Virus record (IMG/VR): IMGVR_UViG_3300023184_000293 | Coordinates: 1 to 37,625 of that record | Strand: one strand, 5' to 3' | Length of the DNA stretch: 37,625 nt | Source: a virus | Shown here: one piece after another, positions 22,512 to 37,625 of the stretch | Numbering within the stretch: position 1 is the first letter of the stretch | Layout of the letters: every line of letters starts with the position of its first letter | Made by a program: the position numbers and the translations under genes | The notes under the pieces: model-generated | The model's input: only the letters and a program-made list of their open reading frames with translations | The model's database searches: none | Told to the model about the DNA's origin: nothing

Positions 22512-24503
22512 TTACTTTTTCGCTTGCATCATTCCTGTTGCTGTGCCGGGGTCAATCACAATCCAGCCGTTCTCATGGGCTTCAATCAGTCCAGCGTCAA
22601 TGAGCGGCTTAATAAAAGTGCCGTCTTCCCGCAGGATATTTCGCCATGTTTTGCTCTTGGTTCCAATGAGTCCATTCTTTTCGCCATGCTCAATCAATGC
22701 AGATTTGGTGAGGTAAGGCGCACCCCCACGGTCTTCTGCACCTGACTCCCACCATGCTTTTTCAAATGACTTGAACCCGCTTGCCTTCTGGGTTTCTGGT
22801 GGCGGCTCACCTTTGACAATCACCGCGCTAGTGACAGGTTCGCCATCCTCGTCTAGCCAGCCGGGTATCGCTATCGTTTCAAGTTCAACGTAGACTGACG
22901 CTGCCATCTCAGCATCCTTGCTCTTGCGCTGCACGATCTGCATGGCAACCCCTGGCTTGCCGGGTATGACGCTGATCTCAATGTCCAAGGCTCCACGCCA
23001 TGCGCTTGAGCCACGGGCACGGTGCTGGGCTTCCTCTGACACGCCTGTGTGGTGAACAAGAATGACGGTGCAGCCAAACTCTTGCATAAGTGCAGCGCAG
23101 GCGTCCAGCATGGTCTTGGCGTCTTGGGCGCTGTTCTCGTCACCAGCCATGAATCGGTGCAGGGTATCCACCGTGATTACATCTGGCTTGATCTTGAGTG
23201 CGCGTATGGCCTCGACCACTTGCAAGTAACCGGCTGCGGTGTTGAGGTCTACGCCTGACTTGCTGACCCACATATTGAGGTTGCTGACACTGTTGTGGTG
23301 CTTCCAGGCTGCTATGCGGCTTCGCAGGCCGTGATGCCCTTCGCCAGCAAGATAGACCATGTTGCCGGGTTTGACTTTGTGTCCATGCCAGTTTGCCTTG
23401 CCACTGGCAATGTGCAGCATCCAATCCAAGGTCACAAAGGTTTTGCCGCCACCGCTGGGGCCATGCACCATTACAAGTGCCTTGTCCTGTATCCAGTGCT
23501 TTACAAGCCACGCAATGGGCGCAGGCTGCGCGGAAAAGCCATCGGCATGGATAAGGTAGTCGGTAGCCACCGGCTTCAACAGCAACGCCAAGTCATGCCC
23601 CGCTTGAACGTAATCGTTGGCGTCCCCTTGAGTCGGCGGCATGGTCATGCGTACCCCAAATTTTGCTGATGCTTGTTCTGCGTACCGCTGCCCAACGCCT
23701 GACGCATCGTTGTCTGCCACGATGCAAATGTCCAGTGTCGGGTGCGCTGTTTTTAAGATGCCTGCCACTGACACCAAGTTGCTGGCGCTGTAAGCCACGG
23801 CACAGGGTTTACCCGTAACCTCCGCTATGGTGGCTCCAGTAGCAAAGCCTTCAGCAAGGTACAGCGTATCGGCATCTTCCAAATGGCCCAGCATCCAAAA
23901 CATGGAGCCTGTCTGACCACCAGGGTGATACTTCTTGTCGCCGTCACCGGCAATGTATTGGATGGATGACAGTTCGCCGCCTGCGTTATACAAAGGAACC
24001 ATCAAGCGCCCGTCACCTGTCACCCTTGCGCCGTGAGGCTTGATGCCCTTGCGCTGTAAGTATGGATGCTCTGGATTTGCTGCGCTGCCCTCTACCCAGA
24101 TAATCTCCACCGTGTTAGCGGCAACTTCACGGGTCTTTTTCTGCTCGGCGTCCCGCTTGGTCTTAGCCTCTGCCAAACGTCTGGACTGCGCCATTTCCTC
24201 GGCAACTGTCAGGCTGCGCCCAATCTCTGCCCTCCAAGTCAATTCAATGCCGGAGCGCCAACAGCCAAAGCGCCCTGCTGGTATGCCATCACTGAAGGCA
24301 ATGTACCAACCGGGCTTGTCGTGCCCTGCCTCGCCCTTGGTTCCGCTGTTAAATCGGTGCAACTTGCCGTCAAGGTGAATGGCGTCAGGTGGCTTCAAGC
24401 CTGCGCCAAGCATGGCGTCCTTGAGTTGATCCTCTGGTGCGATAGGCGCTTGTTGCGCTGGCGGCGACCAGGGGCCACCGAGGATGCTTGCGAGGTCTGT
24501 CAT
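22512..24503 (-). CDS. Primase-helicase fusion (Toprim primase + RepA/DnaB-like ATPase)
   Basis: A 663-residue replication protein. Residues ~165-310 are a Toprim primase domain, with the acidic LYLAEGF at 214-220 and VADNDASG at 262-269. Residues ~325-540 are a RecA-fold helicase of the AAA_25/RepA type: Walker A GPSGGGKT (348-355), Walker B VITVD (442-446), and VILVHHTG (480-487). A short winged-helix-like C terminus follows. No zinc finger like that of T7 gp4 is obvious at the N terminus. The protein would prime and unwind DNA at the phage fork. It is transcribed leftward from the divergent promoter region, with AAAGGT about 8 bases before ATG. Confidence 0.9.
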   Translation of the reverse strand: MTDLASILGGPWSPPAQQAPIAPEDQLKDAMLGAGLKPPDAIHLDGKLHRFNSGTKGEAGHDKPGWYIAFSDGIPAGRFGCWRSGIELTWRAEIGRSLTVAEEMAQSRRLAEAKTKRDAEQKKTREVAANTVEIIWVEGSAANPEHPYLQRKGIKPHGARVTGDGRLMVPLYNAGGELSSIQYIAGDGDKKYHPGGQTGSMFWMLGHLEDADTLYLAEGFATGATIAEVTGKPCAVAYSASNLVSVAGILKTAHPTLDICIVADNDASGVGQRYAEQASAKFGVRMTMPPTQGDANDYVQAGHDLALLLKPVATDYLIHADGFSAQPAPIAWLVKHWIQDKALVMVHGPSGGGKTFVTLDWMLHIASGKANWHGHKVKPGNMVYLAGEGHHGLRSRIAAWKHHNSVSNLNMWVSKSGVDLNTAAGYLQVVEAIRALKIKPDVITVDTLHRFMAGDENSAQDAKTMLDACAALMQEFGCTVILVHHTGVSEEAQHRARGSSAWRGALDIEISVIPGKPGVAMQIVQRKSKDAEMAASVYVELETIAIPGWLDEDGEPVTSAVIVKGEPPPETQKASGFKSFEKAWWESGAEDRGGAPYLTKSALIEHGEKNGLIGTKSKTWRNILREDGTFIKPLIDAGLIEAHENGWIVIDPGTATGMMQAKK

Positions 24504-32517: not shown

Positions 32518-32736
32518 GATGCTTTCCTTGGTTGGTGAGACTAGAGTGTAACTGATTTTCTTACGTGCAACATCTTTTATCACACTATTTACTAAGTGTT
32601 TACCCTTGCTTTTTACCTTGCACTTTTTGCATATGCACTGCACGTGCATTTCGTGCAACTGCACTTTTTGCACTTTCATTGCACGTGCAAAAAGTGCAAT
32701 TCATGACAAAAACAACATAAAATTGCACGGGATGCA

Positions 32737-32756
32737 CACACTCCTTAAGGAGTGTG
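32737..32756. repeat. 20-base perfect palindrome
   Basis: CACACTCCTT / AAGGAGTGTG. As DNA it is a protein-site candidate, as RNA an 8-bp hairpin with TTAA loop. It is flanked on both sides by TGCAC/GTGCA motifs. Located 85 bases before terS. Confidence 0.8.
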
Positions 32757-32770
32757 CAATCGTGCAAATG

Positions 32771-32798
32771 TTGTGCAGCGTGTGCATGGGGGTAAAAT
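32771..32798 (+). promoter_or_regulatory. Candidate rightward promoter for terS and late genes
   Basis: TTGTGC (32771-32776), 16-base spacer, TAAAAT (32793-32798). GTGCA motifs lie within the -35 and spacer, so a TGCAC-binding protein would block or activate it. -35 match is only partial. Confidence 0.4.
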
Positions 32799-32840: not shown

Positions 32841-33332
32841 ATGTTTGAAGTGAATGTCAGGGCTGAGCTTTCGCAGGCTGTAATCGATAGCATGGTTGAA
32901 GACGGGCTGAGTCTTCGCAAAGCATCAGCAAAGCACCAGACGACCGCTCAGACGGTTCTACGGGCGGTTGCGGATAGCCCTGCCTTGGCGGAGCATTACG
33001 ACCGCGCGCGCGCAGCGGTTATTGAGAGACTGGCGGATGAAGTAATGGAACTTGCGGATGCACCAGTGGCTAAGCTAGACAATGGCGCAACTGATCCCGG
33101 ACTGGTGAGGCAAAGGCAATTGCAAGTAGATACACGCAAGTGGTTTCTCAGCAAGCTAGCCCCAAAAGTCTATGGGGATCGCCTAGACGTTTCAGTGAGC
33201 GATAACCGTATCTCTATTAGCGGCGCTTTGCTAGCCGCGCAGTCCCGGCTTGCACTGATGCACGATGCATCGCACGTGCAGGATGTGCAGACCAAGTTCG
33301 ACCAGGGGGAGGGGGGAGGGCCGAGCAATTAG
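32841..33332 (+). CDS. Terminase small subunit
   Basis: A 163-residue TerS. The N-terminal HTH (AVIDSMVEDGLSLRKASAKH, QTTAQTVLRAV) should bind packaging DNA; DRARAAVIERLADEVMELAD and RQRQLQVDTRKWFLSKLAPK, then VYGDRLDV form the helical oligomerisation part seen in Sf6/P22-type small terminases. The acidic/Gly-rich C terminus probably contacts TerL. Its gene lies directly next to the TGCAC array, a plausible binding target. GGGGAAAC precedes the start. Confidence 0.88.
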   Translation: MFEVNVRAELSQAVIDSMVEDGLSLRKASAKHQTTAQTVLRAVADSPALAEHYDRARAAVIERLADEVMELADAPVAKLDNGATDPGLVRQRQLQVDTRKWFLSKLAPKVYGDRLDVSVSDNRISISGALLAAQSRLALMHDASHVQDVQTKFDQGEGGGPSN

Positions 33333-33363
33333 GGCCACAGCTACGGAGGCTCCACGAACAATT

Positions 33364-33434
33364 TTTATTTTTTAATATATATTCTCGCAGTCGCCTCCAT
33401 GCACTATCGTGCTTTATTTTTTAATAATATATAT
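33364..33434 (+). repeat. Two AT-rich direct repeats between terS and terL
   Basis: TTTATTTTTTAATATATAT (33364-33382) and TTTATTTTTTAATAATATAT (33413-33432) are separated by 30 bases. This is the most AT-rich stretch seen in the window. It could be promoter-like (TTAATATAT), an unwinding element or part of a packaging site. terL ATG lies at the end of the second copy and has no Shine-Dalgarno site. Confidence 0.6.
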
Positions 33435-34956
33435 GCAAACAACAATCTACCAACCAGAAGACGAGCAGGAACTCATGGCAAGGCTATGGGTTCCATCGCT
33501 TAAAGATAACCCACTGGCGTTTGTTTTGTATTTGTTTCCCTGGGGTCAAAAGGGTACACCGCTGGAGCATTTCTCTGGCCCAAGAAAGTGGCAGCGGGAT
33601 GTATTGAATGATATTGCTACGCATATTAAAAATAACAAAGGAGTAATAGACTTCGCCGTACTCCAAGAAGCAGTATCAAGCGGAAGGGGTATTGGTAAGT
33701 CGGCATTGGTGTCATGGCTGACGATATGGATGCTGTCTACCAGGATTGGCAGCACAACCATTATCTCGGCGAACAGTGAGAACCAGCTACGGTCAATTAC
33801 TTGGGCTGAGATTACCAAATGGCTGGCGATGTCTATTAACAGTCACTGGTTTGAAGTCTCAGCCACTCGGGTGACGCCTGCGAAGTGGTTGACTGAGTTA
33901 GTCGAGCGGGATTTAAAGAAAGGTACAAGGTATTGGGGTGTGGAGGGTCGGCTGTGGTCAGCGGAGAACCCTGATGCTTATGCTGGTGTACACAATTTTG
34001 ATGGTGTGCTGGTGATTTTTGATGAGGCAAGCGGCATCGACGACAGCATCTGGGCGGTGACGGGGGGATTCTTTACGGAGAACACGCCGAATCGCTTTTG
34101 GCTGGCGTTTTCCAACCCACGGCGCAACACGGGGTACTTTTATGAGACATTTCACTCAAAACGGGACTTTTGGGTGACTAAGGTGGTGGATGCTAGGACG
34201 GTGGAGGGGACGGACAAAGCGGTTTATGGTCGAATTATTGATGAGTACGGGCCGGACAGTGCCCAGGCGCACGTTGAGGTGTATGGTGAGTTTCCGAGTG
34301 CGGGGGATGACCAGTTTATCCCATCGAATACAGTCGATGAGGCGATGAAAAGGCCGAAGTACAAGGACAATTCAGCACCAATCATTATTGGTGTAGACCC
34401 AGCGCGGTTTGGGGCTGATGCTACGGTCATTGCGGTGCGGCAGGGGCGGGATATTGTGGCGATTAAGAAGTATCGGGGTGATGATACGATGACGGTGGTG
34501 GGGCATATCATTGAGGCGATGGAGGAGTACAAGCCTGCGATGGTGGTAATTGATGAGGGTGGGCTGGGGGCGGGGATTGTGGATAGGCTCAAGGAGCAGC
34601 GGTACAAGATAAAGGGTGTAAACTTTGGGAACAAGGCCAAAAACCCGATCATGTACGGTAATATGAGAGCGCAGATGTGGGGTGACATGAAGGACTGGCT
34701 CAAATCTGCTAGTATTCCGCAGGATAGGTTTCTCAAAACAGACCTGATTTCGCCCTTGATGAAGCCTGACTCACGGGGTACGATCTTCTTGGAGAGCAAG
34801 AAAGAGATGAAAGCACGGGGTTTAGCTAGTCCAGACGCTGCGGATGCGATATGCGTGACGTTTGCTTTTCCTGTGGCGCATCGGGAGTACCGTGAGGCAG
34901 CGCCGCGCAGGTACTCAGATCACTCGGCGGTGTCTACTGGATGGATGGGATCATGA
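33433..34956 (+). CDS. Terminase large subunit (packaging ATPase-nuclease)
   Basis: A 507-residue TerL. Walker A-like SGRGIGKS is at 83-90, Walker B VLVIFDE at 192-198, and the RNase H-like nuclease acidic residues D322 (GVDPARFGAD), D374 (VVIDEGGLGAG) and D468/D471 (SPDAADAICV). The start is uncertain: ATG at 33433 lacks a ribosome site, GTG at 33409 is possible, ATG at 33475 has AGGA just upstream. TerL powers DNA entry through the portal and cuts concatemers; its stop overlaps the next gene (ATGA). Confidence 0.92.
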   Translation: MQTTIYQPEDEQELMARLWVPSLKDNPLAFVLYLFPWGQKGTPLEHFSGPRKWQRDVLNDIATHIKNNKGVIDFAVLQEAVSSGRGIGKSALVSWLTIWMLSTRIGSTTIISANSENQLRSITWAEITKWLAMSINSHWFEVSATRVTPAKWLTELVERDLKKGTRYWGVEGRLWSAENPDAYAGVHNFDGVLVIFDEASGIDDSIWAVTGGFFTENTPNRFWLAFSNPRRNTGYFYETFHSKRDFWVTKVVDARTVEGTDKAVYGRIIDEYGPDSAQAHVEVYGEFPSAGDDQFIPSNTVDEAMKRPKYKDNSAPIIIGVDPARFGADATVIAVRQGRDIVAIKKYRGDDTMTVVGHIIEAMEEYKPAMVVIDEGGLGAGIVDRLKEQRYKIKGVNFGNKAKNPIMYGNMRAQMWGDMKDWLKSASIPQDRFLKTDLISPLMKPDSRGTIFLESKKEMKARGLASPDAADAICVTFAFPVAHREYREAAPRRYSDHSAVSTGWMGS

Positions 34957-35822: not shown

Positions 35823-35949
35823 AATTGCATTTAGTAAAAATGTTGCGGCGGAAGTAAAATTGGGAAAACCGATTAAACAAAGCGTAGCCATTGCTTATGC
35901 TGTTAAGCGTGAAGCTGAAAAGTCCACCCCTAAAGGTAAGAAGAAATAA
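35797..35949 (+). CDS. 50-residue phage protein, AFSKNVAAEVKLGKPIKQS type
   Basis: ATG at 35797 (GAGG about 9 bases upstream) overlaps the endonuclease gene by 26 bases. Product MPLIKNSSKIAFSKNVAAEV, KLGKPIKQSVAIAYAVKREA, EKSTPKGKKK. The SKKAFSKNVAxE...GKPxKQSxAIAYxVKR motif is a recurrent small phage protein. It ends in a TAATG overlap with the portal start. Function unknown. Confidence 0.8.
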   Translation: MPLIKNSSKIAFSKNVAAEVKLGKPIKQSVAIAYAVKREAEKSTPKGKKK

Positions 35950-37625
35950 TGGCTGACTACACCGGCATTAACAAGGTTGGTCAAGTTGCCAATGTCGGCG
36001 GGGGTGGTGACGGCAGCACTAATGATGACCAGCACGATATGCTGGCAACCATGCGCTCACGCTTGACAATGGCGGTGGATGCCTACAGTGACTCGCGCAG
36101 CAACGAACTAGACGACTTGCGATTTATGGCGGGTAGTCCAGACAACCAGTGGCAGTGGCCTGCTGATGTACTGGCGACTCGCGGGGCCGTCCAGGGGCAG
36201 ACCATCAACGCCCGTCCCTGCCTGACTATTAACAAGTTGCCGCAACACGTGCGCCAGGTCACAAACGACCAACGCCACAATAGGCCCAGCGGTAAAGTTA
36301 TACCTGCGGATGACGTTGCTGACCCTGAGATGGCAGAGATATTCAACGGGATAGTGCGGCACATTGAGTATATCAGTGACGCTGACACGGCCTACGACAC
36401 GGCTTGCGAAAACCAAGTCACCTATGGCGAAGGCTACATTCGCGTATTGACTGAGTACTGCGACGAAAATAGCTTTGACCAAGACCTTAAAATTGGGCGA
36501 ATTCGCAACTCATTTTCGGTGTTTATGGATCCCGCCATTCAAGACCCATGCGGTGCGGATGCACGGTGGTGTTTTGTTACGGACGATTTGCCCAAAGACG
36601 AGTACTACCGACTGTATCCCAACGCTGCACCTATCAGTAGCTTGCAGTCCCTTGGGATTGGCGACCAAGATTTAACAAACTGGTTGCGGGATGACACGGT
36701 GCGGATTGCTGAGTACTTCTATGTGGAATACAAACCAGAAACACTCAACCTGTACCCCAACAACATTACGGCGTTTAACAACACGCCTGATGACAAGCAA
36801 CTCAAGATGCTCTACGGCAAACCTCTTAAAAACCGGGTTGTGCAGCGAGAAAAAGTCTGCTGGGTCAAGACTAACGGTTACGAGGTGTTGGAGAAGCGCG
36901 ATTGGGCGGGTAAGTACATCCCTATTGTGCGGGTGGTGGGCAATGAGTTTGAGGTTGACGGGCAAATTTATGTCTCCGGCCTAGTGCGAAACGCCAAGGA
37001 TGCCCAGCGGATGTACAACTATTGGGTTAGCCAAGAAGCCGAGATGCTGGCCCTGGCGCCTAAAGCCCCGTTCATTGGCTACGGTGGACAGTTTGAAGGG
37101 TATGAAACTCAGTGGAAAACTGCCAACACCACCAACTGGCCCTACCTTGAGGTCAATCCAGACGTAACTGATGGTGCTGGCGGTAGTCTGCCACTGCCCC
37201 AACGTGCCCAGCCTCCGATGGCCTCTAGTGGCCTTTTGCAAGCCAAATCAGGGGCATCTGAGGACATTAAAGCCGCAACTGGGCAGTACAACGCTAGTCT
37301 GGGCATGGGCGGGAACGAGCGCAGCGGCAAGGCTATCCTAGCCCGTCAGCGTGAGGGTGACGTTGGAACTTACCACTATGTTGACAACCTGGCCCGTGCC
37401 ATTCGTTACGTCACTCGGCAACTGGTGGACATGATTCCAAAAATCTACGATACCCAGCGTATTGCCCGAATCATTGGTGAAGATGGTGAGACTGACATGG
37501 CAAAGATTGACCCGTCCCAAGAGATGCCGGTCAAAAAAATCGTTGACCAGCAAGGCATTCAGATTGACAAAATTTACAACCCCAATGTCGGCAAGTACGA
37601 TGTGGTGGTGACAACCGGCCCAAGT
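35949..37625 (+). CDS. Portal protein, P22 gp1-like (5' part, open at window end)
   Basis: Starts at ATG 35949 in a TAATG overlap. N-terminal portal motifs include ATMRSRLTMAVDAYSDSRSN, DDLRFMAGSPDNQWQWPADV and ARPCLTINKLPQHVRQVTND, then GEGYIRVLTEY and SFSVFMDPAIQDPCGADARW. From 36528 on it repeats the sequence found at the start of the window with ~93% nucleotide identity. The frame is still open at the last base, so the C terminus is outside the window, or at 1099-1596 if the molecule is circular. Together the two parts give 724 residues. Confidence 0.92.
   Translation, partial: MADYTGINKVGQVANVGGGGDGSTNDDQHDMLATMRSRLTMAVDAYSDSRSNELDDLRFMAGSPDNQWQWPADVLATRGAVQGQTINARPCLTINKLPQHVRQVTNDQRHNRPSGKVIPADDVADPEMAEIFNGIVRHIEYISDADTAYDTACENQVTYGEGYIRVLTEYCDENSFDQDLKIGRIRNSFSVFMDPAIQDPCGADARWCFVTDDLPKDEYYRLYPNAAPISSLQSLGIGDQDLTNWLRDDTVRIAEYFYVEYKPETLNLYPNNITAFNNTPDDKQLKMLYGKPLKNRVVQREKVCWVKTNGYEVLEKRDWAGKYIPIVRVVGNEFEVDGQIYVSGLVRNAKDAQRMYNYWVSQEAEMLALAPKAPFIGYGGQFEGYETQWKTANTTNWPYLEVNPDVTDGAGGSLPLPQRAQPPMASSGLLQAKSGASEDIKAATGQYNASLGMGGNERSGKAILARQREGDVGTYHYVDNLARAIRYVTRQLVDMIPKIYDTQRIARIIGEDGETDMAKIDPSQEMPVKKIVDQQGIQIDKIYNPNVGKYDVVVTTGPS
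36528..37625 (+). repeat. Divergent terminal repeat (matches 1-1098)
   Basis: 1098 aligned bases without indels; about 76 mismatches by hand count, all but one synonymous (Glu codon at 1033 versus Gln codon at 37560). Shows the genome is circularly permuted or redundant and closes at about 36.5 kb. The two copies are not identical, unlike a simple assembly overlap of one clone. Confidence 0.9.

Follow-up and report, generated by a model that had tools for sequence, protein, structure and literature searches.

An iteron array beside the small terminase gene of a freshwater phage is a probable replication origin, with the C-terminal end of a primase-helicase as its proposed reader

The DNA analysed here, referred to as the window, is the whole of a 37,625 bp virus record from IMG/VR (IMGVR_UViG_3300023184_000293), both ends of which (35949–37625 and 1–1596) belong to one gene family, as though a single gene had been severed there, a pattern that fits a complete genome linearised at an arbitrary position. 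On the plus strand it carries the small terminase gene terS (32841–33332; Sf6-like, PF20901 Sf6_terminase, phrog_1482) and the large terminase gene terL (33409–34956), and adjoining terS, at 32565–32786, lies the main iteron array, an element without strand that is made up of 17 TGCAC/GTGCA sites in both orientations, many of them separated by steps of 8–9 bp. As stated in the initial annotation, the array occupies a divergence point next to terS, with leftward genes on one side and terS, starting at 32841, on the other. A 663-aa primase-helicase (Toprim_3 plus AAA_25), which we propose as the initiator that reads the array, is encoded on the minus strand at 22512–24503. Positions 33304–33373 hold a further conserved element, GGGGGAGGGGGnAGGGCCGAnnnnnnAGGGCCAnC...ACGAACAATTTTTATTTTT, some 70 bp long; it precedes terL in most relatives whatever their array word, being located between terS and terL in the window type and, in the sister group described below, upstream of terS, and is a candidate late promoter or packaging signal.

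The dense TGCAC/GTGCA cluster noticed in the initial annotation is real: 18 TGCA cores are found in 233 bp of array. When the whole window is shuffled with dinucleotides preserved, the largest TGCA cluster per 233 bp averages 7.6 and never exceeds 11, and shuffling the array itself gives 6.5 on average and at most 12. The earlier estimate of about 19 cores in some 230 bases was slightly off in its count, and the palindrome TGCACGTGCA, said to occur several times, is present just twice (32639 and 32680). When all 5-mers were compared, GTGCA and TGCAC were the most clustered of the whole window, and the cluster is all the more striking because GTGCA is rarer than expected across the window overall (89 occurrences against 153 expected, both strands). 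An equal motif density was looked for in the remainder of the window, where the best 233-bp stretches hold 7 TGCA, and the density is therefore local to the array. Among these stretches is the 3' end of terS, which contains a secondary GTGCA/TGCAC cluster (33250–33290) that was found in 12 of the 12 GTGCA-class loci examined.

Two substructures can be distinguished within the array. The left block (32618–32699) consists of two 40-nt arms that are 78% complementary, with 2 nt between them, and holds ten TGCAC/GTGCA sites. The dyad core (32723–32767), where we propose that the helicase is loaded, is formed by a TTGCAC-GGGA-TGCAC pair, then a palindrome, then an oppositely oriented GTGCA pair and, written out, reads TTGCACGGGATGCA[CACACTCCTTAAGGAGTGTG]CAATCGTGCAA, so that the iterons on either side face inward. 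The 20-base palindrome reported earlier was recovered as the perfect CACACTCCTTAAGGAGTGTG at 32737–32756. Many window-type arrays likewise contain a palindrome with flanking iterons that point at each other; the very same palindrome lies within differently worded arrays at loci L075 (TTACACA) and L063 (ATTCAC), and related ones occur in the cultured phages 1N2-2 (ACACACCTATATAGGTGTGT) and PB15 (CACACCTTATAGGTGTG, read off the sequence). The palindrome score is 10 at the array, compared with a 95th percentile of 6.2 and a maximum of 10 in random 330-bp windows, and by the same score a clear palindrome is absent from some loci. A recurring dyad combined with exchangeable iterons fits an origin at which two helicase rings assemble. 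As to an AT-rich melting region beside the iterons, the AT fraction of 50-bp windows rises to 0.68–0.70 at 32575–32600 and at 32700, which is not exceptional. GC skew does not change sign at the array and so offers no hint of an origin, but skew tracks gene direction here and is uninformative.

Viral contigs were scanned twice, by terS and by terL, which resulted in 159 loci, most of which carry a dense short-word array upstream of terS with a word that varies by clade: GTGCA, TTACACA/GTGTAAG, ATACGCA, GATGCA/GATTCAA, ATGACCCAA or GTCCACA, and further ATGACTCACA, GCCAACA, ATAGCCCACA, CCAGCAC or CACTAAC. Relatives that keep terS were searched for absence of the array, and the array proved to be retained, but with a different word. 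For the six class words that were tested, sites are concentrated in the roughly 750 bp upstream of terS at loci of the matching class; loci of the other classes have fewer of them in that stretch, with partial overlap between classes (GTGCA, for instance, also occurs in the TTACACA class), and the dominant tandem step is 9 bp in four of the six classes measured.

Further information on the gene that the array accompanies comes from cultured phages. Over 80% or more of its length, the window primase-helicase has matches in seven phage records, and six of them represent four phages with named hosts, Salicola phage CGphi29, Idiomarinaceae phage 1N2-2 and Alteromonas phages XX1924 and PB15, at 51–55% identity; no match was found among the cellular genomes of the GTDB set. 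In 1N2-2 (GGTACA), XX1924 (GGTTCA) and PB15 (GGTTCA) the genome's strongest array of a short word begins right behind the primase-helicase gene, and in CGphi29 a weaker ATGTCCC/GGGGACA cluster is situated there, the strongest cluster of that genome being elsewhere. The array therefore accompanies the primase-helicase gene, and its location beside terS is particular to the wider group of the window.

The coupling between array word and primase-helicase was measured in a larger sister group (type 1), which has a 764-aa primase-helicase matching the NrS-1 primase (6k9e, 6k9c) and DUF5906, and in which arrays were labelled as TGACCC (D, 44 loci) or GTCCAC (C, 29 loci). Across these 73 loci, seven columns of the primase-helicase alignment, all at aa 719–741, split the D and C classes without error, compared with 0.715 for the best class-discriminating column of TerS and 0.669 for that of TerL. 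Array class changes 4 times on a tree of the primase core (residues 1–690), 15 times on the TerL tree and 19 times on the TerS tree. On the TerS tree the primase tip follows the array in seven of seven independent pairs (p=0.016); the primase tree offers just three to four such pairs, which are not significant alone, and these few independent switches weaken the perfect D/C discrimination. The loci found by terL agree, with D tips accompanying TGACCC (L113, L117), C tips accompanying GTCCAC (L138, L158, L162) and separate tips for the GCCAAC, AGCCCAC, CCAGCAC and ACTCAC words. The word is coupled to the C-terminus of the primase-helicase rather than to TerS or TerL.

Out of about 46 flanking ORF families within about 8 kb, a column accuracy of 1.0 was obtained solely for the primase-helicase, the small convergent ORF next to it and one ORF overlapping with the array. 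In a clade of about 79% identity the neighbour is a different protein that is the same across classes, and it is the primase tip that differs between them; the small convergent ORF, which performs perfectly in one clade and fails in the second, was therefore rejected. Two other ways of finding the reader, a rank correlation of genes against motifs over 21 genomes and sliding identity along the 764-aa protein, were too noisy, and it was column-wise class discrimination that succeeded. Structure prediction for the type-1 C-terminal domain is confident (pLDDT 86.6) and shows helices and then a beta-hairpin; the discriminating residues are located within this hairpin or adjacent to it. Foldseek searches with this domain returned only weak matches in the PDB, among which are several proteins of winged-helix type (RTP, MarR and PadR families); the viral models yielded an NrS-1-polymerase-like protein and, as weak matches, further PrimPol proteins.

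A comparable pattern is seen in the window type. In an alignment of 89 homologues the protein is strongly conserved except at about residues 601–630 (22614–22703, minus strand), its most variable segment (entropy 1.4–1.9) and the proposed specificity determinant. For the 17 genomes in which both array and tip are known, the types of aa 601–630 sort, by inspection, with array class. Primase-helicases 97–99% identical to that of the window (L288, L290, L291 and L294, together with L005 and L039 from partial sequence) are all accompanied by GTGCA arrays, and this persists where TerS is as little as 45% identical. The helicase part resembles RSF1010 RepA (1g8y, E 2.8e-6). The window-type C-terminal domain yielded no sequence match in the PDB and is predicted poorly (pLDDT 51.7), and no profile similarity was found between it and the type-1 domain; we therefore make no claim that the tips share an ancestor.

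Taken together, these observations lead us to interpret the array, with a probability of roughly 0.82, as the replication origin of the phage, in which iterons placed round a palindromic dyad core would be bound by the C-terminal domain of the primase-helicase. The array consists of multiple short repeats in regular register (17 sites in the window) and the putative initiator is a helicase fused to a primase, of the Toprim_3 plus AAA_25 kind in the window type and NrS-1-like in the sister group; judging from covariation, its C-terminal domain appears to be paired with the iteron word. From this we infer direct binding, loading of a double ring and firing of the origin, as follows. Primase-helicase C-terminal domains would engage the tandem iterons on both sides of the palindrome, which are oriented towards one another, two helicase rings would load in opposing directions with opening of the duplex, and the fused primase would then prime synthesis. 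Across the phage family a change of iteron word goes with a change of the C-terminal domain, and the family thus contains many specificity classes. Out of the three functions put forward in the initial annotation, it is thus the iteron-like origin that gains support, the pac site is contradicted by the TerS comparisons given below, and the late-gene operator may be a side function.

An operator array with no origin function, through which the primase-helicase tip or another regulator controls the divergent leftward genes and the late operon, is the best of the alternatives and in our view an improbable one. It would account for the placement between divergent gene clusters, and the coupling to the primase tip indicates the probable reader and not the downstream effect of reading. 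However, the reader so indicated is a replicative primase-helicase, the array goes with that gene to another place in the cultured phages, and paired iterons around a dyad resemble origins more than a simple operator.

Less probable still is that word and tip merely travel together on recombining blocks with no functional contact. They lie 2–3 kb apart in the sister group, where the ORF beside the primase co-segregates as well in the main clade, as linkage would predict. But co-segregation is weaker for the next gene lying between the two (best column 0.93) while the two ends agree at 73 of 73 loci, about 8 kb separates array and primase-helicase in the window type, the differences are restricted to a small segment of an otherwise conserved protein, and the distant cultured phages also have the array with the primase, at another genome position.

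Binding of the array by a TerS ring to begin DNA packaging, i.e., a pac or cos site, was initially favoured, as the array is directly upstream of terS in the window and its relatives and the words seemed at first sight roughly sorted by terS clade; it was dropped on finding near-identical TerS proteins with different words and is now regarded as very unlikely. The N-termini of TerS from L134, L149 and L128 are nearly identical and their array words differ, as is also the case within the group of the window, where L043 and L036 share 89% identity over 71 N-terminal residues, and conversely GTGCA arrays stand beside TerS N-termini with no detectable mutual similarity. The 19 class switches along the sister-group TerS tree, the best TerS column of just 0.715 and the position of the array behind the primase gene in cultured relatives all argue against this reading. 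Contig ends near terS, inspected for a cos-like break, showed no pile-up at one base.

The predicted origin can be compared with several known systems. The P4 alpha protein is a primase-helicase whose C-terminal winged-helix domain binds origin repeats (ori/crr), with unwinding and priming as the next steps (PMC4234260). In the window protein a Toprim-type primase and a helicase are likewise combined with a variable C-terminal domain, but its helicase part is RSF1010-RepA-like, its array is next to terS and roughly 8 kb away from the gene for the initiator, and there are many iteron words per family. In SaPI Rep and SCCmec Cch2 a C-terminal domain recognises short iterons and the origin is directly downstream of the gene (PMC7581432), an arrangement like that of our cultured relatives, in which the array is right behind the initiator gene; in the group of the window, by contrast, the array has moved to terS, the helicase is RepA-like and the carriers are free-living phages, not islands. 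The DNA-binding domain of PLE RepA covaries with origin iterons, with repeated specificity swaps, and mismatched pairs do not replicate (PMC8263062). Initiator and iterons seem to covary in the same manner here, but PLE RepA is a RepA_N protein with neither primase nor helicase, whereas the variable part here is the tip of a primase-helicase. When the fetched ORFs were searched for stand-alone copies of the C-terminal domain, every match was either a primase-helicase or a fragment truncated by the end of its locus, so that, unlike in PLE/ICP1, no Odn-like copy was found in the fetched loci.

Replication of RSF1010 also uses iterons (PMC4234260), and the window helicase domain matches its RepA, but RSF1010 divides these tasks among three proteins, RepC for iteron binding, RepA as helicase and RepB' as primase, whereas here they apparently form one chain. 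Finally, the NrS-1 primase, which the sister-group 764-aa protein matches, recognises the short word TTTGGTTA through a helix-bundle domain on a single-stranded template (PMC8718748), unlike the specificity mapped here, which falls at the C-terminal end. What is distinct in the present phages is the linkage of a RepA-like helicase to a Toprim primase and a variable C-terminal tip, the array beside terS, the two primase-helicase types with homologous terL and the many words per family; no description of the pairing between array and primase in these phages was found in the open-access literature.

With this interpretation an unexplained repeat array becomes a predicted replication origin for which a reader can be proposed by name, and the family becomes a natural catalogue of dozens of matched origin–initiator pairs with several words. 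Within each of two distinct primase-helicases the proposed specificity residues are confined to a single small segment, which, together with the natural pairs, makes the acquisition of a new origin specificity directly testable by swaps. Origins in environmental phages could be proposed from sequence alone, and the same system is present in phages with named hosts (1N2-2, XX1924, PB15 and CGphi29). A wider and decidedly tentative proposal is that in freshwater P22-like phages the tip and about 5–18 iterons switch together by recombination, giving at least nine words and origins that are deaf to one another. Such switching could be driven by evasion of origin-directed nucleases, of satellites or of rival phages, as has been reported for PLE and Odn.

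Several minor observations concern individual loci. Six loci had at first been left outside the D and C classes, and three of them, L217, L219 and L267, were inspected. One phage (L217, 5555–6106) has adjacent TGACCC and then GTCCAC arrays together with a primase tip of the TGACCC type, and this double array is possibly an intermediate of a specificity switch. At L219 and L267 an inserted gene, which from its sequence looks like an HNH homing endonuclease, separates the array from terS, and TGACCC clusters lie farther upstream; record MW202483 likewise has an annotated homing endonuclease upstream of its terminase genes. Loci L085 and L087 encode a TerL 95–98% identical to that of the window along with a short TerS, the other primase type and CCAGCAC/GGCACAC arrays, and replication modules seem to have been swapped beneath a near-constant terL.

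In part of the sister group, CACTAAC/GTTAGTG arrays are found upstream of terS at ten loci (L161, L132, L140, L096, L142, L146, L137, L102, L109 and L155), in which the repeats are inverted with 11-bp spacing, as opposed to the 9-bp tandem step, and accompany several different primase tips. The CACTAAC word does not account for these genomes, most of which also hold a few sites of the word predicted by the tip, and the CACTAAC array may therefore be a second feature with another reader, probably bound by another protein. In L281 and L282, for which the class word is GTCCAC, a run of CAGGCAGG repeats comprising 16 copies of an 8-mer is located upstream of terS.
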